Source of the DNA: Peredibacter starrii | GTDB taxonomy: Bacteria > Bdellovibrionota > Bacteriovoracia > Bacteriovoracales > Bacteriovoracaceae | Length of the DNA stretch: 64,000 nt | Assembly: GCF_034259205.1 (NCBI RefSeq) | Contig: NZ_CP139487.1 | Location: forward strand, 558,001-622,000 | Reading direction: 5' to 3' | Shown here: piece by piece, positions 39,861 through 51,021 of the stretch | How the letters are laid out: each line of letters opens with the position of its first letter | How positions within the stretch are numbered: position 1 is the stretch's first letter | The notes under the pieces: model-generated | Database searches by the model: none | What the model was told of the DNA's origin: nothing | Seen by the model: only the letters and a program-made list of their open reading frames with translations | Made by a program: the position numbers and the translations under genes

Positions 39861-41918
39861 TTAAACCCTCGGAAGCTCAACAATAAATGTAGAGCCTTTA
39901 CCCATTTCACTCATTAACCGCACAGTTCCGCCATGTTCCTCAATAATTTGTTTATTGATAAATAGACCTAATCCCAGACCACTTACGTCTTCTGCTGTGT
40001 GAGCACGCTCAAAGCGTTTAAAGATTCTTTCTTGATCCTCAGGAGCAATTCCACGTCCGAAGTCTTGGACCTTTAATATTAGCTTATCTTCAATCTCTTC
40101 GAGATTCACATGAATTGGTTTTTTATTTCCATAGCGAATGGCATTGGTCATGAAATTGGTGATGACTTGCTCGAAACGTTCTGGATCAATTTCAGCAGAG
40201 ACCTCTTTAGAGGTCTCATATTTTAATTCAATTTGCAGTGACTTCAACTGATCAGCAAAGCGTCCAAGGATCTCTTTAGTAAATTCTGAAAGGTTGGTTT
40301 TCTTCTTTCTGAGTGTAAGTTTACCGGTTGAGATGCGAGAGATATCCAGCATATCTTCCACTAGTCTGGTCAATCTCGCCAATTGGCCATTGGTCCCATT
40401 AAGGAACTTTTTCATTAACTGAGTTTCAGTCGTATCAATCCCGAGATTGTTGATGAGATCGTTTAACACTTCGATTTGAAGGTTCAGCGAGGTGATAGGA
40501 GTGCGAAGCTCATGTGAAGCAATCGAGATAAAATCATCTCTCAAGCGAACTGCACTCTGAAAATCTTTGAATAAGCGGGCATTATCAATTGCGACCGCCA
40601 GATGCCTGCCGAGTTCCATCGCCGTACGAAGGTCTCGCTCATCAAAGCGTTTTCGTTCTGTGGTGTTGTAAAGATTTAAGCAACCGATGGTTCTTCCGCG
40701 AATTTTAAGCGGGACCGCAATATGAGAGTTAAAGCCAATGGCAACCATGAGATCCACATGCTCTTGAGAAACGCAGAAGTTTTTAAGCATCTCATTACTT
40801 AACTTATTGGTGAGCAGCGGCTTCCCAGTAGTGAGAACTCTTGAGGTTGGTTGAGGCGTTTGAAGATCAGGAGGATATTCATCCGTCATCTTTTGAATCA
40901 GCTTTTCGATATTCGGATCAAAATGCTTGATGATCAGACGTTTAATACAATCGCCCTCCAGAAGATCTACTGCACATCCGTCCGCAAGAATAGGAATGGA
41001 GGCACTACCCACCTTTCTGATGATCTCTTCATAGTCTAGGGTTGAAATGAGCATCGACTTAATGTGGGCCATGAAAACTTGTATTTCGTTAACTTCATGC
41101 TGTTCCGTCACATCTTGATGAATGACAACAACTTCCTGTACCTCATCTTGATCGTTTTTGAGAGGATACAGAATGCCCTTCGCCCATCTGGCGCGAGCAT
41201 CATAGACACCAACTTTCGCAGGGTCATATAAGAATTCTGGAACGCCAACCGTTTCACCTTTAAACGCACGTTTGATTGTTTCAAGCTGGCCCGATTCTTC
41301 CAGGAGCTTATCCTTAAGAAGATTGAAATCTTTCAAAATATAATTCTGCACGAACTCCTCGGAGACGCCCCATAGTTGACGATAGGCGGGGTTCACCAGG
41401 ATAGTGTGACCGCTTTTCGCAAGAAGTTGAATGCTAAGGGGGGATTGCTCAAAAATCGCTCTGAATCTTTTTTCTGAACGCGCCAAAGCGTTGTTGAGTT
41501 CTGCCATGGTTTTATTCAGTCGAAGATTTGTGATGTCTTGAAACGTTACAATGGCCCCAAGCCTTGTGCCGTCTTGCCCAATAATAGGCTGAGCATTACA
41601 CACAAACAGCAACGGTTCCTGGCCTTTCCTACAAACGAATATTTCTATATTTTTAACGACTTCACCTTTGAAGGCGCGGTAGAGCGGAATGTCTTCTTTG
41701 GCTATTGGAATTTTACTATCCGGATAGTACATGTCGTAATGCTCTTGCCAGTTCTGGATGACATCTGCCCCAGAAGGGCCTCCAAAGAATTCTTGGGCCT
41801 TTTGATTAACGTAAGTGAGTTCGCCTTCTGCATTACAGACAACAATACCATCATTGGTACTTGCGAAGAGGGCCGATAGGAATTCTGGTCTTTCCAGAAG
41901 AGAGGAATTTCTTTCCAT
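39861..41918 (-). CDS. PAS-GAF sensor histidine kinase
   Basis: The 685-residue kinase has two PAS domains (about 10-130 and 150-275), a GAF domain (about 290-450), the H-box SIASHELRTPITS (His about 468), the N-box NFMTNAIRYG, and DFGRGIA and GLGLGLFINKQII in the ATPase. No membrane helix is visible. Its core resembles that of the kinase at 31110 (RTP versus KTP H-boxes, identical GLGLGLFI), suggesting duplication with different sensors. No adjacent response regulator. Confidence 0.9.
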   Translation of the reverse strand: MERNSSLLERPEFLSALFASTNDGIVVCNAEGELTYVNQKAQEFFGGPSGADVIQNWQEHYDMYYPDSKIPIAKEDIPLYRAFKGEVVKNIEIFVCRKGQEPLLFVCNAQPIIGQDGTRLGAIVTFQDITNLRLNKTMAELNNALARSEKRFRAIFEQSPLSIQLLAKSGHTILVNPAYRQLWGVSEEFVQNYILKDFNLLKDKLLEESGQLETIKRAFKGETVGVPEFLYDPAKVGVYDARARWAKGILYPLKNDQDEVQEVVVIHQDVTEQHEVNEIQVFMAHIKSMLISTLDYEEIIRKVGSASIPILADGCAVDLLEGDCIKRLIIKHFDPNIEKLIQKMTDEYPPDLQTPQPTSRVLTTGKPLLTNKLSNEMLKNFCVSQEHVDLMVAIGFNSHIAVPLKIRGRTIGCLNLYNTTERKRFDERDLRTAMELGRHLAVAIDNARLFKDFQSAVRLRDDFISIASHELRTPITSLNLQIEVLNDLINNLGIDTTETQLMKKFLNGTNGQLARLTRLVEDMLDISRISTGKLTLRKKKTNLSEFTKEILGRFADQLKSLQIELKYETSKEVSAEIDPERFEQVITNFMTNAIRYGNKKPIHVNLEEIEDKLILKVQDFGRGIAPEDQERIFKRFERAHTAEDVSGLGLGLFINKQIIEEHGGTVRLMSEMGKGSTFIVELPRV

Positions 41919-43224: not shown

Positions 43225-45126
43225 ATGAGTTTGGATTACCAAAAATTAAAACAGAAACAGGCCGAGGATGGTGGGTTCTGGACCTCCTACTCGGACTTGT
43301 TCATGGTGTTGAGTGTAGTGTTCCTGTTGCTCTATGTGGTGGCATCACTTCGTAGTGGTACATCTAGCGTGCAAAACATGATTGAGAATCAGAAGCTCAA
43401 AGCAGAGGCCCAGGATTATAAAAAACAAATCCAGGCCTACAATGCTTTGAAGGATGATTATCTTGAAAAAGACGCCAGTGAAGAAGAGGCCAAAATGTAT
43501 GAAGAGCTGATGAGTAAGCTCTCGTTGCTTCAGGATGAAGCTCATGAGGAGAAGCGCCAGCTGGAAGCCCAGGCCCAAGAGAACGCTGCTAAGGCCCGTG
43601 CTCTTAACCAATATCAACAGATGGTTCGTAACATCGTTAACACAAACTTACTTTCTAACAAGAAAATTAAGTTCCGTAACGAAGTGATCGAAAAGAAAAA
43701 CGAATCAATCAAAGAGATGGATTCAACCATCCAGGCCCAGACTCAGGACATTCAACAGAAAGCTCAGCAAATTACTCAGAACCAGAAACAAATCGAAAAG
43801 CAAGAGCGTGAGATCTACGAGAAGCAACAAGTTCTCGATCAGAAGAAGCAGCAAGTTGCTATGCTTGAATCTCAGGTTGATGAGAAGGCCAAAACGATTC
43901 AGGCCAACCAATCAAAGATCAATGCTCTTAACTCAGATCTTTCTAACAAGATCAAAGAACTTGAAAAGACCAGCGCCACTGCCAATACATCTAAAGCGGA
44001 ACTTAATCGTAAGATTGCAATCATGAAGCTTCAGAATGCAAAGCAGATTGGCGAACTTCAAAATCAAACAAAGGTCATGAAAGAAAGTGTTGAATCAATC
44101 AACCGCGAACTTTCAAATGCCGAAGGTCAGCTTGCTGATGCTCGCGGAAAAATGGCCGAGCAGGAAGCACTTAAGAAAAAGATGGAAGCAGATATGGCGG
44201 CAGCAAGTGCTGACCACGCCAATAAAATGGCCGAAATGCGTAAGAATTTCGATGCGAAGATGAACGCAGAACGTGCTGCTCTTGAAAAGCAACTTGAGGG
44301 CGAAAAAGCTTCGGCTGCTGAGAAGATGAAGGCCCTTGGAGAGTTTAAAGACAAAATGGCAAAAGAGAAGGCCGCTCTTGATGGCCAACTTGCCGCTCTT
44401 AAAGATGAAGTTGGCAAAGCTAAAGGTGAAGCAAATCAACTTAAAGGTCAGCTGGCCGATGCTCAGAAAGAACACGGTCGTTACTTAGCGGCCATCGATC
44501 AACTTAATAAAGACAAGGCCGGACTATCTGGTGACTTAAAACGCGCCAATGAAATTGCCAATGCTAAGAAAGCTCTTGCTAAGAAAATCGCAGACAACCT
44601 TGCCAAAAACGGAATCAAGGCAGGAGTTGACGGTAAAACAGGTGACGTAACAATTCAGTTTGGTGACGAGTACTTCGATACTGGTCGTGCAGATCTGAAA
44701 CCAAACATGAAAGAAGTGCTTAAAAAATTCGTTCCGACATATTCTAAGTCTCTTCTAGAAGACGAGAAAGTTGCTAAGGAAATTTCTTCGGTTGAAATTG
44801 TTGGGTTCTCTTCACCAACTTATAAAGGTAAGTACGTTGACCCTCAATCTTTAGCAGATGGTGACCGAGCAGCTGTTAGCTATAACCTGGACCTTTCTTA
44901 TAACCGTGCAAAATCGATCTTTAACTATATGTTCGATAAGAAGAGTATGACCTATCAGCACCAAAAGGACATGTTACCGCTGGTTAAAGTAACCGGTCGT
45001 TCATTCCTTGCTGAAGGTGTTCAAGGACGTGACATTGCTTCGGGCCTAGATATGAAAGACTACTGTGCGAAATATAACTGTGAAAAATCTCAAAAGGTAA
45101 TCATTCGTTTTAACTTGAAGGACTAA
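43225..45126 (+). CDS. MotB-like stator protein with long coiled coil and OmpA-like domain
   Basis: The 633-residue protein begins with a short cytosolic tail and one membrane helix (about 24-44) in FWTSYSDLFMVLSVVFLLLY. Asp24 aligns with the proton-binding Asp of MotB (Asp32 in E. coli, in YADFMTA). Residues ~45-455 are an almost unbroken Gln/Lys/Glu-rich coiled coil, predicted periplasmic. An OmpA-like peptidoglycan-binding domain follows (about 470-633; FDTGRADLKPNM, YNLDLSYNRAKSIFNYM), although the usual TDxxG Asp is replaced by FSSPTYKG. ATG 43225 is used; the longer start at 43147 lacks a ribosome-binding site and would precede the MotB-type N-terminus. First gene of the three-gene motor operon. 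Confidence 0.8.
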   Translation: MSLDYQKLKQKQAEDGGFWTSYSDLFMVLSVVFLLLYVVASLRSGTSSVQNMIENQKLKAEAQDYKKQIQAYNALKDDYLEKDASEEEAKMYEELMSKLSLLQDEAHEEKRQLEAQAQENAAKARALNQYQQMVRNIVNTNLLSNKKIKFRNEVIEKKNESIKEMDSTIQAQTQDIQQKAQQITQNQKQIEKQEREIYEKQQVLDQKKQQVAMLESQVDEKAKTIQANQSKINALNSDLSNKIKELEKTSATANTSKAELNRKIAIMKLQNAKQIGELQNQTKVMKESVESINRELSNAEGQLADARGKMAEQEALKKKMEADMAAASADHANKMAEMRKNFDAKMNAERAALEKQLEGEKASAAEKMKALGEFKDKMAKEKAALDGQLAALKDEVGKAKGEANQLKGQLADAQKEHGRYLAAIDQLNKDKAGLSGDLKRANEIANAKKALAKKIADNLAKNGIKAGVDGKTGDVTIQFGDEYFDTGRADLKPNMKEVLKKFVPTYSKSLLEDEKVAKEISSVEIVGFSSPTYKGKYVDPQSLADGDRAAVSYNLDLSYNRAKSIFNYMFDKKSMTYQHQKDMLPLVKVTGRSFLAEGVQGRDIASGLDMKDYCAKYNCEKSQKVIIRFNLKD

Positions 45127-45157
45127 TTTAAAAATTTGATGAATTAAGGTGGTACGT

Positions 45158-46192
45158 ATGCTTAGTCAAGGTTTAGTTCAAGGTTTAGTAGATGGAGTTG
45201 TAGTTTTTGCTACAGACCTTCTCATGCCAGCAATGGCAGTGTTCTTTGTATTAGCAATCTCTCTTCGTTGTCTAATTTATTACACAGTAAAAAGAGAAGA
45301 CTGGTTTGCTAAAGAGTTTTCAAAGCGCGTGAAGAAATTCATGGACGCAAGGGACGAGAAGGCCGATCAATCGTTCTATGTCATTTGTAAGAGACTTCTT
45401 GAAATCACTTACTACGAAGTATTTGAAATTCGTTCAATCATGAAGCGTAGAAATCCTGATGCGATCATGACTGTAACTGACCGAGTTTTCCTGGTTCAGC
45501 AAGGTTCTGCTCGCATTGTGACTGACACACTTAAGCAAGTTAAGTATCTTAAATGGGGTGAGCGTCCTAAGTTCCTTGAAATCTCAAATACTGTTCTTCG
45601 TAACAATCCATGTTTCAATAAAGTATTTGGTATCGTTCCAGTAGCGGTATTCAATGACTTCCTTAATACAGTTCCAGGTCTATTCATCGTAGGCGGTATT
45701 TTTGGTACCTTCCTTGGGATCATGAAGGCCCTTCCAGAACTAGGTGGTATGAACCTTAGTGACGTTGAAGGTTCTAAACTAATCATGGACAACTTCCTTC
45801 TTAAAATTTCATTCTCAATGTCGACATCGATCATTGGTATTATCCTTTCAGTATCAATGAGCTTGGCGAATACATTCTTCTCTTGTGAGAAAGTGTATAT
45901 GGAAACAGTTGAGCGTCTTGAAAACGAATTCGACACACTTTGGAACATGAGTGCTTCCAATAAACTCCCGGCCGAAGTTTCTAACTTCGAGGCCGAACGT
46001 GATCCTATTGAAGTTCTTTCTGAGGATCTGATTGCTAAGGAATTGAACGTTGAAGTTGGATTTGTGACTCTCGTTAGACCTATCAGTAAATGGTGGGGGA
46101 AAATGGGAAAATCTAATCCTCAGCAGAAGTACGACGAAATTCCTGTAGCTGCAGCTAAGGCGCCCGAAAAAGAAGATAAAGAGGCGGCCTAA
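45158..46192 (+). CDS. MotA/TolQ/ExbB-type proton channel subunit
   Basis: The 344-residue protein has an N-terminal membrane segment (about 15-40), a cytosolic stretch of about 120 residues, and two further helices. The first is VPGLFIVGGIFGTFLGIMKAL and the second FSMSTSIIGIILSVSMS, the core of the MotA/TolQ/ExbB channel family and close in style to ZorA. AAGGTGG lies upstream of the ATG at 45158, which is 31 bp after the MotB-like gene. It should form, with the MotB-like protein, a proton-driven stator complex in the inner membrane. Compared with MotA it has three rather than four clear helices. Confidence 0.78.
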   Translation: MLSQGLVQGLVDGVVVFATDLLMPAMAVFFVLAISLRCLIYYTVKREDWFAKEFSKRVKKFMDARDEKADQSFYVICKRLLEITYYEVFEIRSIMKRRNPDAIMTVTDRVFLVQQGSARIVTDTLKQVKYLKWGERPKFLEISNTVLRNNPCFNKVFGIVPVAVFNDFLNTVPGLFIVGGIFGTFLGIMKALPELGGMNLSDVEGSKLIMDNFLLKISFSMSTSIIGIILSVSMSLANTFFSCEKVYMETVERLENEFDTLWNMSASNKLPAEVSNFEAERDPIEVLSEDLIAKELNVEVGFVTLVRPISKWWGKMGKSNPQQKYDEIPVAAAKAPEKEDKEAA

Positions 46193-46215
46193 GGTTTTGA
46201 ACCCGGGAGGGTTAC

Positions 46216-49200
46216 GTGTCATCACTCATAATTAAAATTACCCAGAACGGGTCATCGAAAGAGTATCTGTTCAATAAGTTGGGGCCGATCATTATCGGCT
46301 CCGACAAACGTTGTGACCTGGTTCTGGATGATGCTCATATTGAACCAAAGATTCTTGAGATCAAGGTAAGTGGCGGTAACATTTTCGTAAAAGAAGTTGG
46401 TGCTCGAGCACAAATCTACCTTGATTCAGTCATCCTTCCTTTTCGAGAAGAGACTCGATATCATGATGGTAGTTGTCTGACTTTAAAGAACGCCAATTAC
46501 CAGATCCATATTTCAAGAAAAGAGGAAGAGGCACTGGAGCCACCTCCATTTTTTGAAGGTGAATTCAAAGAACGCCTGGATCGCATGAATCTGAAAATTC
46601 GTGAGCGCGAATTTGAGTTGAAAATCCTTGATGCTTCTCAAGAAAAAAAGAAAAATCAACTCCTAGATATTGAAGATAAGTACCACAAGCATGCAAATGA
46701 AAAAAGCAAACTTGAAGTAGAGGTCGGAGCTCTTAAAACTCAAAAAGAGATCCTGACCCAAGAGATTCGTAAAAACACAGATAAGAATCGTGATGAGGAA
46801 GAGAAAATCATCCAGCTTCGCGAGTTTGTGAAACGACTTGAAAATGAAGAGCGTGGTCTAAAGGATACCATTGTTGCCCAAAATCTTGTTCTTACCAATT
46901 TAAAAGATGAAAGAGAAAAGAAAAGCAAAGAAGTAGATAACCAACGTGTCCTTCTTGCAAATCTCCAACTCGATAGCACTCAATTAGAAGAGCAGATTAA
47001 GGAACTATCGATTCAACAGGAAAACCAGGAAAGAGAAATTCAGGATGAGGGCCTTAAGGTTCAAAAGATCCTGACCAATTCTGATGCGGCCTTACGCGAA
47101 AGCGCAAGAATCCAGGGTCACATGGCCCAGATCATGAAAGAGAAGGCCGTTCTTGATCATGAAGTAAAAGACGTTCAAGATGAGGTCAATAAATTAGAGG
47201 CCCAACGTAAAGAAGCAGTCTCAAAACTGAATGATCTTAAAGTTCAGATCCATAACGAAGAGGCACACGCCCGTAAAATTCAGGAAGAAATCAAAAAAGA
47301 AACTGAGGAAGAAAGTAACCTCAAAATTATCAATGGCGAGTTAAGGGCAGAGCTGGTTAAGGCAGAAGAGAAGCTTTCTCTTAAAAAGAACCAGTTGAAC
47401 CAACTTGATTTCCAAAATCAGGACGCCTCAAGAAAACTTTCAACCATTAACTTTGAGCTAGAAAGAGCATCACTACGTTTGAAAGAACTGACATCTGAAG
47501 AACGTGCTCATGAGCTTAAGATGCTTGCCATCCGTGAAGACATGCAAAATCTTTCACGCAAAGCAGGTGATGATAGAAAAAATCTTTATAAAGAAATCGA
47601 AGATGAAAAGACCAAGCTCGGAGTTGAAGTTAATGCCCTTCGCGGTCTAATCGAAGAAGGCGAAAGAGAAAAGGCAAAAACTGATGCTGAACACGGTCTT
47701 TTAAAAATTCAGATAGAGGAACTCCATTCAAAACAACGCAATCTTCATAAAGAGAAGGCGGTACTTGAGGCCCAGGTCGCAGAACTTCATGTTAATAAGA
47801 AGCAAACTGAGACTCAGATTCAGGAACTAAAATCTGAAACGATGAAGATGGAGCATGAAAAAGGCCGTGCTCACCGTGAATTGACACAGCTTCAAATTAA
47901 ACTGATGGACTGTGAAACTCAGATCAAAGAAAAACAAGAGGCCGCTCGAATCGAAATGGAGAATTATAAGCGTGATGAACGCTCGAAAATCCTGGCAGAG
48001 AAAGAAGTTTATCTGGCCGAAGTTGAGGCCTTTAAGCAAAAGTCCATGATCGAAGTGGAAGCTGAATATCGTCGTAAACAAAACGACATTCATCAAATGA
48101 AAAACTTGGCCCAAGAGCAAGTTGAGCAAATTATCAGTGAGGCCAGAAAGATTGAGGCCGAGATCACTCGTGAGGCCAATAAACGCTTAAAAGAAGCGAC
48201 TCTTGATGCCCAGGAAAGAGAGTCTTCTTCTCATAACCGTATTAAACAGGCCCAAGACTATTTCAAAGAGAAAGAAGCCGAAGCTGAGGAGATTGTTACT
48301 AAAGCTCGCTTGGAGTCCCGTGAGCTTGTCAAACGCACGGAAATGGAACTTCTGGATGATTTAGGGAAACGCAAACAGAAGGTCAAAAACTTCCTGAAGA
48401 TGAAACAGGAGACTGGTCTCATTCATATCAAAAACATGACTGACCAGCATGTGGCAAAACTTAGAAGGGACGAAGATAAGAGTCATCAAAAACTAGAAGA
48501 AATTAAGCGCAAGGAACTCAAAAAGATTGCCCGCATTCGTGAAGAAGAACTTAGCCGCCAAGGCGAGTTGAAAGATTCAGCGATGAAGGAATTGAAGACC
48601 GAGAAAGAAAAGATTCAACGCCAAATTGCTGATCTCAAAAAACAACAAGAAACTGAGCTTGCTGATAAAAAGAAAACTATGCTTGAGCACATCAACTCGA
48701 CCAAGTTTAATCAGCAAAAGATGTGGGAGGAAGAGCTTCGTAAAGAAAAGGAACTCTTTCAGCGAACTAAGAAAGACCGTATTCTTAATGCTACTCAAGC
48801 TGTCATGAACGTCCTTGTGGCCGAAACCGGATCCCAAGGTGAAAAAGAACAACAGATCCGTGATAAAATTCGTTCGACACTTGAGATGGCAATTGATGGT
48901 CAAAATGCGAACGCGATGAAGGAAGTAGAGCAGGTACTTGACTTCAATCCTATGAAACGCAAAAAAGTCATACCTGTTATTAAGAAATATACACTTCGTG
49001 TTGGTATTCCTGCTGCTGTTGCGATCGTCCTTCTTGCCGATATTGGTTCAGTTCGTACTAAACTGGTTGAGGCCACGAAAGAGGGAATGAAGCAACGTAA
49101 CTCTGCTTCTGAGATGTATGTAACTCAACAGAAGACCGAATGGAAGGCCAAGCACACTTATAATCCTGAAACGACACCAGGTTATAAAGCGACGTTTGTG

Positions 49201-49584
49201 GATAACATTATCTACACCACAGATTTTGAAAAAGTGATGGATAATGAAGAGTTTCAGAATGATTGGATTCTAAAAGTTCACGATTTTATGGTTAAAGACC
49301 TTGAGCTTTCGGAAGATGTTGCGATCAGCTACATCTCTTCGGAAGGCACTCTTATCAAAGAGCTTGGGGTTGCACGTAAAGATCTTCACCCTCAACATCT
49401 CGATGTCGGCATGAAGAAACTTACAGATCTTGAGACGACACATCTGGGATGGTTGAAGGAGAAAATTACTGACCCGGCAAAAGTCGAAAAATTTGCGGCC
49501 TTCCGTAAAGAGTACTTTGATAAGTTCTACAACGAGAAATTCAAATCCGATCGTGGCATTGCCACGGAGGCTCCGAAGCCTTAA
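46216..49584 (+). CDS. FHA-like, giant coiled-coil transmembrane protein
   Basis: Start GTG 46216 is preceded by GGGAGG. Residues 1-105 resemble an FHA domain (LGPIIIGSDKRCDLVLDD, VILP, YHDGSCLTL), but the phosphothreonine-binding Arg and SRxH/NG residues are not conserved. Residues ~110-900 are almost continuous coiled coil. A membrane helix (about 926-946, VGIPAAVAIVLLADIG) precedes a ~175-residue C-terminal region, predicted periplasmic, with no family I recognise. The topology puts about 790 residues of coiled coil in the cytosol. Third gene of the motor operon and likely its cytosolic or regulatory scaffold. Ends before a strong terminator. Confidence 0.78.
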   Translation: MSSLIIKITQNGSSKEYLFNKLGPIIIGSDKRCDLVLDDAHIEPKILEIKVSGGNIFVKEVGARAQIYLDSVILPFREETRYHDGSCLTLKNANYQIHISRKEEEALEPPPFFEGEFKERLDRMNLKIREREFELKILDASQEKKKNQLLDIEDKYHKHANEKSKLEVEVGALKTQKEILTQEIRKNTDKNRDEEEKIIQLREFVKRLENEERGLKDTIVAQNLVLTNLKDEREKKSKEVDNQRVLLANLQLDSTQLEEQIKELSIQQENQEREIQDEGLKVQKILTNSDAALRESARIQGHMAQIMKEKAVLDHEVKDVQDEVNKLEAQRKEAVSKLNDLKVQIHNEEAHARKIQEEIKKETEEESNLKIINGELRAELVKAEEKLSLKKNQLNQLDFQNQDASRKLSTINFELERASLRLKELTSEERAHELKMLAIREDMQNLSRKAGDDRKNLYKEIEDEKTKLGVEVNALRGLIEEGEREKAKTDAEHGLLKIQIEELHSKQRNLHKEKAVLEAQVAELHVNKKQTETQIQELKSETMKMEHEKGRAHRELTQLQIKLMDCETQIKEKQEAARIEMENYKRDERSKILAEKEVYLAEVEAFKQKSMIEVEAEYRRKQNDIHQMKNLAQEQVEQIISEARKIEAEITREANKRLKEATLDAQERESSSHNRIKQAQDYFKEKEAEAEEIVTKARLESRELVKRTEMELLDDLGKRKQKVKNFLKMKQETGLIHIKNMTDQHVAKLRRDEDKSHQKLEEIKRKELKKIARIREEELSRQGELKDSAMKELKTEKEKIQRQIADLKKQQETELADKKKTMLEHINSTKFNQQKMWEEELRKEKELFQRTKKDRILNATQAVMNVLVAETGSQGEKEQQIRDKIRSTLEMAIDGQNANAMKEVEQVLDFNPMKRKKVIPVIKKYTLRVGIPAAVAIVLLADIGSVRTKLVEATKEGMKQRNSASEMYVTQQKTEWKAKHTYNPETTPGYKATFVDNIIYTTDFEKVMDNEEFQNDWILKVHDFMVKDLELSEDVAISYISSEGTLIKELGVARKDLHPQHLDVGMKKLTDLETTHLGWLKEKITDPAKVEKFAAFRKEYFDKFYNEKFKSDRGIATEAPKP

Positions 49585-49592
49585 TTCATCAA

Positions 49593-49636
49593 ACGATAGG
49601 CCGGAAGGTATGAGATCCTTTTGGCCTATTGTTTTT
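49593..49636 (+). terminator. Terminator of the motor operon
   Basis: ACGATAGGCC and GGCCTATTGT pair over 10 bp (one G-U), with an inner AAGG/CCTT, followed by TTTT. Confidence 0.85.
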
Positions 49637-49848
49637 CATATATCATCCCACTCATGACTCAAGGTTCTGAGGCAGCACGTGCGCCTTGTGCGTCTTAATG
49701 AATTTTCATACTGCTGATTTCAATGTAGAAAATGTTGCCTTTCTATGACTGTCCTTAAATAAGTTTTTACAGGTAAGAAATTTAGCAGGAAACTAACTCA
49801 GGACTTTTCCTAAAAAATTAATAAAAATTCATGAACATCGGAGTGTGG

Positions 49849-51021
49849 GTGAATAAGAAAATTTTGGCGACGGTTACATTACTCTCTACTGGTCTTGCAA
49901 ATGCGGCGACTCTGCAAGGTTTCGATGCTACGGCATACGGATTTATCAAAGCGAGTGCGATTTATTCTACTGAAGCAGTAGGTAGTTTTAACAACACCAA
50001 CATGTCAGCTCCTACACATGCGGTAGTGGATGCTGGCCCTAATAGAGAATCTCGTCTCAGCTTTCAAACTGCACAAAGCCGTATTGGGGCAATTCTAAAA
50101 AAAGGTGAAAATCTTTCGGGTAAAATCGAATTAGATTTCATTGATTTCGCCAAATCGTCTCCTACAACTCAGATGAACCCTCGTGTTCGTATTGCTGCCG
50201 TTACTTATAGCTGGGGCAATAACAAAGTAATCGTAGGTCAAGATTGGGATCTATTCTCGCCGGTGACTGGTTATACTTTCGATATCGTTGGTATGTACTT
50301 TAAGGCCGGTAACTCAGGTTTCATGAGACAGCAGGCCCAATATCTAAAAACTTTGGGTGAATGGGAATTAGGTGGTGCTGTTGGTCTTAGTTCTGCCAAC
50401 CCAAGTGTATCTGATACAGATACTGAATATTCAAAATCACCTTCTTATGCTCTTAGACTTTCTCGCAAGCTTGATGCAGGTCGAGTGGGTGTTTCAGGAA
50501 TTTATAGCCGAATTGATCTATATAACCCGAATGGTTCTCCACAAGTAAATCCTAATGGAAAACATCATGAATCATATGGTGCTAACATTTTTTTCGAGAA
50601 GAACTATGGTCTTCTAGGACTTAAAGCTGAGGCATACTATGGTCAGAACATGGACAATTTGGGAACTCTGACTCTTAGCCGAGCAGCGAACGGCATTGAC
50701 ACTAAAGAATATGGTGGATTTTTATCGGCACAGTATCAGGTCATCGAGAAGAACTTCATCTTCGGTGGTGTAGGTATTGCTAAAATCGATGACCCCGCCG
50801 ATATGCCAAACGTTGCTACAGCAACAACTCCTGCAACTCCAGCAAGTAACTTTCTTGCAAGTAACTCTGTTCTAAGAGTTGGTTGGGAATATCGTGTGAC
50901 GGATGACTTCTCTTGGATCTCGGAAGTTTCGCACTTCACAACGCAGACAAAAGTTTCAGACAATAACTACAAGTTGGCCATCGCAGACACCTTTGAAACC
51001 GGTGTTCAACTTAGATTCTAA
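49849..51021 (+). CDS. DcaP-like outer-membrane porin
   Basis: GTG 49849, with CGGAG ending 5 nt upstream, gives a clean signal peptide (MNKKILATVTLLSTGLANA); an in-frame ATG at 49831 is less suited. The 390-residue product has repeated amphipathic strands. Segments such as ESRLSFQTAQSRIGA and KVIVGQDWDLFSPV are typical of DcaP-type porins, and it ends in VQLRF with terminal Phe. It should be a trimeric porin for small anions or sugars. Substrate is not determinable here. Monocistronic, ending in a perfect terminator. Confidence 0.8.
   Translation: MNKKILATVTLLSTGLANAATLQGFDATAYGFIKASAIYSTEAVGSFNNTNMSAPTHAVVDAGPNRESRLSFQTAQSRIGAILKKGENLSGKIELDFIDFAKSSPTTQMNPRVRIAAVTYSWGNNKVIVGQDWDLFSPVTGYTFDIVGMYFKAGNSGFMRQQAQYLKTLGEWELGGAVGLSSANPSVSDTDTEYSKSPSYALRLSRKLDAGRVGVSGIYSRIDLYNPNGSPQVNPNGKHHESYGANIFFEKNYGLLGLKAEAYYGQNMDNLGTLTLSRAANGIDTKEYGGFLSAQYQVIEKNFIFGGVGIAKIDDPADMPNVATATTPATPASNFLASNSVLRVGWEYRVTDDFSWISEVSHFTTQTKVSDNNYKLAIADTFETGVQLRF

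Follow-up and report, generated by a model that had tools for sequence, protein, structure and literature searches.

A trio of co-directional chromosomal genes in Peredibacter starrii probably encodes a proton-driven 5:2 motor akin to ZorAB and TolQR, which would be gated by a signalling partner and perform mechanical work on the cell wall or envelope. The trio is apparently a so far undescribed, conserved variant of 5:2 motors with lineage-specific signalling partners. It lies within the window, by which I mean the whole stretch of 64,000 nucleotides that was analysed, and its features are as follows.

43225..45126, + strand: MotB/ZorB-like subunit (633 aa, ATG start) with a transmembrane (TM) Asp, an arm, and a ZorB-type C-terminal domain
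45158..46192, + strand: channel subunit of the MotA/TolQ/ExbB/ZorA fold (344 aa, three TM helices, without the long ZorA tail)
46216..49584, + strand: third protein, FHA-coil-TM-helical domain (1122 aa, GTG start)
46282..46482, + strand: FHA domain of the third protein (residues ~23-89), with a degenerate phosphothreonine site
48988..49584, + strand: third protein, TM (~925-947) plus the helical domain at its C-terminus, for which no Pfam or PDB relative was found
49591..49640, + strand: intrinsic terminator and operon end (18-bp hairpin and U-run)

An earlier, sequence-only reading of this DNA had described three co-directional genes closed by one terminator, and both points were recovered: an ORF check of the window found the genes separated by gaps of 31 and 23 bp, and folding revealed a hairpin with its U-run 3' of the third gene (-26.9 kcal/mol, z -6.8) that was absent from the list of a simple terminator scan. 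The operon is flanked by a PAS-GAF histidine kinase (39861-41918) and a porin-like outer-membrane protein (49831-51021), neither of which accompanies the trio in the relatives that were compared.

Calling ORFs in all loci and removing duplicates by channel sequence yielded a survey of 128 loci, mostly from Bdellovibrionota. A MotB gene was present upstream of all 127 channels that had upstream sequence, and stood directly before the channel in 125 of the 128 loci, the remaining three being one contig edge and two ORF-caller artefacts with MotB present; chance adjacency of the trio is ruled out by this conservation. The third slot held an FHA-coil-TM-tail protein in 72 loci, a CNB (cyclic-nucleotide) protein in 33, no gene in 12, and another gene in 8, with 3 loci ending at an edge. 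Among the 8, L046 and L135 still contain the tail protein in a split or divergent form, and one locus without a third gene (L230) has a CNB gene on the opposite strand. The CNB partner is a small protein in which PF00027 was detected in 16 of 17 aligned sequences, the 17th being an unrelated protein, and the phosphate-binding cassette is retained in 31/33. The proposal of a dedicated third partner that is conserved with the trio elsewhere has thus held up, given the FHA-type protein in 72 of the 128 loci, while its fixation to the FHA type has not, given the 33 CNB loci and the 12 without a third gene.

A two-gene version occurs in gammaproteobacteria (L170-L186), in which complete MotB copies have about 767-973 residues and neither an FHA nor a CNB gene is close by, so that a partner is not always required. 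As the third slot is taken by CNB in a sister lineage with the same core and is empty in the gammaproteobacterial one, the third protein appears closer to a switch or adaptor than to the only partner for output.

The channel has three TMs, with a cytoplasmic domain between TM1 and TM2, and matched the Pfam MotA_ExbB model weakly (16.9 bits, cut-off 22.9). Its AlphaFold model (pLDDT 78, with low confidence in the tail after ~275) aligned with ZorA in VIA-align at Z 11.6 over 204 residues (rmsd 3.2), TolQ and ExbB coming next, and these three made up the top of the structure list at Z ~10-11.6. Since all-helical models may attain such values by chance, the case for the fold rests on the all-motor top list, the Foldseek ranking, and the family profile, which among solved motor proteins matched ZorA alone (E 4e-8). 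The earlier assignment to a MotA/ExbB-type channel therefore stands.

The C-terminal extension of the channel contains a motif found in 62/72 FHA-linked channels and in 0/33 CNB-linked ones, and this partner-specific distribution suggests that the extension may be where the partner docks. The window channel ends in -EAA (46177-46189), and a C-terminal [AVS][ASG] was found in 63/68 FHA-class channels and 28/33 CNB proteins versus 7.5% of background genes. These ends suggest a candidate ClpXP-type degron of the phylum and, with it, regulated proteolysis of channels and CNB proteins. In other genes of the surveyed loci, too, AA and AS belong to the most frequent C-terminal dipeptides.

The first gene encodes the MotB-like protein that had been expected: its N-terminal TM carries the channel Asp within 'WTSYSDLFMVLSVVFLLLY', a residue kept in every MotB with a readable N-terminus except L169, the start of which seems miscalled, and its C-terminal domain (residues ~438-633) is of the ZorB type and peptidoglycan-binding-like (PADLOC ZorB1, E 9e-30; Pfam OmpA E 6e-4, under the cut-off). 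Absent from the earlier account was a ~390-residue, proline-free helical arm, which should be located in the periplasm. Across the family, the arm between TM and wall-binding domain has median lengths of 346 (FHA class) and 522 residues (CNB class) and reaches ~1490 in the latter, and the B subunit as a whole spans 500-1750 residues. A straight helix of 346 residues is ~50 nm long and exceeds the width of the periplasm, so the arm would have to fold back or run along the wall. MotB length showed no correlation with the length of the third protein (r 0.11).

As for the third protein, the claim of an FHA-like, coiled-coil, membrane-anchored protein was corroborated: Pfam returned FHA (9e-5) and Yop-YscD_cpl (4e-8), followed by a coil of ~800 residues with 3 prolines and a TM at ~925-947. 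In a heptad analysis, local windows often peak near 3.5, which is only suggestive as the whole-length peak of this coil is not above shuffles. In relatives, a strong positive-inside bias of charge (52 vs 4) predicts an N-in/C-out orientation, in agreement with the periplasmic tail that had been proposed. The C-terminal helical domain was modelled with confidence (pLDDT about 95-98) and is expected to be periplasmic. This domain had no Pfam match and no convincing sequence relative, and the fold search found no relative either (best Z 5.3, to TetR), from which a new fold does not follow.

A detail overlooked by the sequence-only reading is that the phosphothreonine site of the window FHA domain is replaced, Ser/Arg/His by E/P/I and Asn/Gly by A/Q, which rules out this domain as a phosphothreonine reader. 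Ser, Arg, and His are present in 60, 61, and 59 of 74 sequences, respectively, and the site is canonical in 52/74 and lost in the window's own subclade. Gating by phosphorylation can therefore not apply as such in the window's organism, and the FHA module must have a role besides phosphothreonine reading, perhaps a protein contact by analogy with YscD, the model of which also matches. The window genome encodes a Ser/Thr kinase.

The signalling-domain partners, the long wall-tethered arm, and the absence of an output protein would also fit a mechanosensor or ion-gated signalling complex, that is, a core run in reverse as a sensor of wall load that reports via FHA or CNB. This reading appears improbable: the system persists in the window's subclade despite the degenerate FHA domain, the TM and periplasmic domain of the FHA form suggest a mechanical role, and the operon contains no signalling enzyme.

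The channel tree, with the six canonical channels of the window genome as outgroup and ZorA left out, separated the lineages by partner: all 34 CNB-linked channels fell into one clade (support 1.0), all FHA-linked channels lay within another (support 0.90), and the gammaproteobacterial two-gene group formed a third (support 1.0). Within the window's genus (G000-G025), the genomes with the FHA class and those with the CNB class do not overlap, a pattern uncorrected for kinship, and other genera hold both. Distances between channels, MotB proteins, and partners were correlated (Mantel r 0.76-0.90, 0/2000 permutations), as expected under co-inheritance, although simple shared descent would also produce such values.

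A channel search of 98 relatives matched 38 genomes, and when 325 genomes of the phylum were searched with a profile, 167 matched, leaving about half without a match; 20 of the 167 belong to a single genus whose genomes measure 3-4 Mb and are in many cases single contigs. The trio was found in most Bdellovibrio genomes searched and is very probably present in B. bacteriovorus HD100, where it would lie at about 1,107,724-1,112,616. A species-genome scan (best 80 of 155 matches) added more named Bdellovibrionota loci and the gammaproteobacterial group. In several genomes of the window's genus, the trio has the same enoyl reductase gene close by. Two fragmented assemblies show its loss: one has a precise empty site at which the flanking genes abut (G018, L266:10291-11604), and the other a remnant without the channel, in which the N-terminal portion of MotB runs into the third protein's tail (G009, L267:3656-7377). 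The site is therefore an old one for the trio, and some lineages have lost the whole unit, a history that speaks against a mobile defence island. Elsewhere in the phylum, it would have been gained once.

Stable inheritance in Bdellovibrio, a TolQ-like topology, and a wall-binding B subunit could also be read as a housekeeping, Tol-Pal-like motor of envelope maintenance, tuned to growth phase, active at the division site or pole and without a part in movement, and phase-dependent turnover would fit the proteolysis-tag-like ends of channels and CNB proteins. I consider this unlikely, though worth keeping in mind, since so many genomes of the phylum do without the trio and tolerate its precise loss, the organism is already equipped with six canonical MotA/ExbB/TolQ genes, and the operon lacks a Pal/TolB-like gene.

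The nearest named relatives of the core are the Zorya proteins, and the window channel scored 28.6 bits against the curated ZorA model (cut-off 190), with 0/192 genomes of the phylum over the cut-off. The third gene had no PADLOC match, and the ten neighbouring genes gave no Zor match and only weak, generic PADLOC matches; ZorC/D, ZorE, and ZorF/G were thus all missing from the operon. A ZorC search of the window's own genome was likewise without a match, but the control gave none anywhere either. Membership of Zorya is ruled out by the sub-cut-off scores, the absent ZorA tail, and the absent effectors. Other ZorA-like channels outside the family (L247 in G050, and L248-L251) scored 42-65 bits against the same model, also sub-cut-off. 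As had been noted earlier, the neighbourhood of the trio yielded no partner genes of a Zorya, flagellar, Ton, or T9SS system.

A Zorya-like anti-phage defence, in which a ZorAB-like motor would sense perturbation of the envelope by phage with FHA or CNB as sensor or effector, draws on the kinship of the core pair with ZorAB in sequence and structure, on a patchy distribution in some genera, and on more than one copy in some genomes, and is nevertheless very improbable, given the low ZorA score, a third slot without nuclease or other effector, neighbours without a Zor effector, and, instead of an island-like placement, a conserved chromosomal position together with presence in nearly all Bdellovibrio.

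The preferred reading remains a signal-gated motor acting on the wall. It is established for 5:2 motors that protons are carried by the Asp and that the pentamer rotates against a wall-anchored dimer. Here, five channel subunits would surround a MotB dimer, the long periplasmic arm of which would be tipped by the peptidoglycan-binding domain, and the C-terminal tails of the channel may couple the motor to the cytoplasmic signalling partner (FHA, or CNB in the sister lineage). Depending on the cell's state, this partner would gate or aim the motor, and it would control or transmit the motion of the pentamer; in the FHA form, it would also extend into the periplasm via its own TM and helical domain. 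The output would be mechanical work on the Bdellovibrionota wall or envelope, for example in gliding or prey-associated envelope movement, and not phage defence. Among the roles listed by the sequence-only reading, defence is disfavoured by the sub-cut-off ZorA score, the lack of an effector, and the conserved site, and gliding, prey attachment, and envelope remodelling are indistinguishable here.

A search of the literature on Zorya, FHA, MotA, and Bdellovibrio, with subscription papers and preprints outside its scope, found no description of the trio, in keeping with the suggestion of an undescribed system, and guessed HD100 locus tags (Bd1147-1152 and Bd1173-1178) had no relevant published mention. 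A 2026 review describes the gliding machinery of Bdellovibrio as unidentified and counts the discovery of its motor among the major open challenges (PMC13104615), which makes the trio a directly testable candidate for a gliding motor. It could be one of the still unknown machines that generate force in Bdellovibrio-related predators. The bolder proposal, that it supplies the missing force for surface movement or prey entry in Bdellovibrionota as a wall-anchored, signal-switched rotary motor of an undescribed class with interchangeable FHA and cyclic-nucleotide partners, is speculative and rather doubtful. One 5:2 motor core paired with different intracellular signal receptors would link second messengers or protein phosphorylation directly to a rotary motor.

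Compared with known motors, the trio shares with the MotA-MotB stator a TM Asp near the N-terminus and the OmpA-like wall-binding domain of MotB, whereas its channel has three TMs rather than four, its arm is far longer, and it has no flagellar rotor partner. TolQ-TolR and ExbB-ExbD resemble it in the three-TM channel, the cytoplasmic domain between TM1 and TM2, and the TM Asp of the B subunit, but the trio has a much-extended B subunit (the 500-1750 residues given above) with a peptidoglycan-binding-like domain and a different third partner in place of TolA, TonB, or Pal. GldL-GldM is a 5:2 motor with a long periplasmic extension of its B subunit, like the MotB of the trio, yet the arm of the latter resembles a coil and is tipped by a wall-binding domain instead of the GldM periplasmic domains, and no T9SS genes were seen. 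I know of no long-armed ZorB-type subunit or FHA/CNB partner in AglRQS, which is set apart from the trio by description and not by sequence. AglRQS is the proposed proton-driven motor of gliding predators, and homologs have been reported in Bdellovibrio (PMC13104615, PMC12505986). Zorya is the closest comparison, with ZorA as the nearest relative of the channel in fold and sequence and with the ZorB-type C-terminal domain of MotB. The trio differs from it in its FHA or CNB partner, its conserved chromosomal site, and the absence of ZorC/D/E beside it; ZorA has a long cytoplasmic tail that the channel of the trio lacks, the long coil sitting on the B subunit instead. The motor core pair, for all these differences, is nearest to ZorAB.
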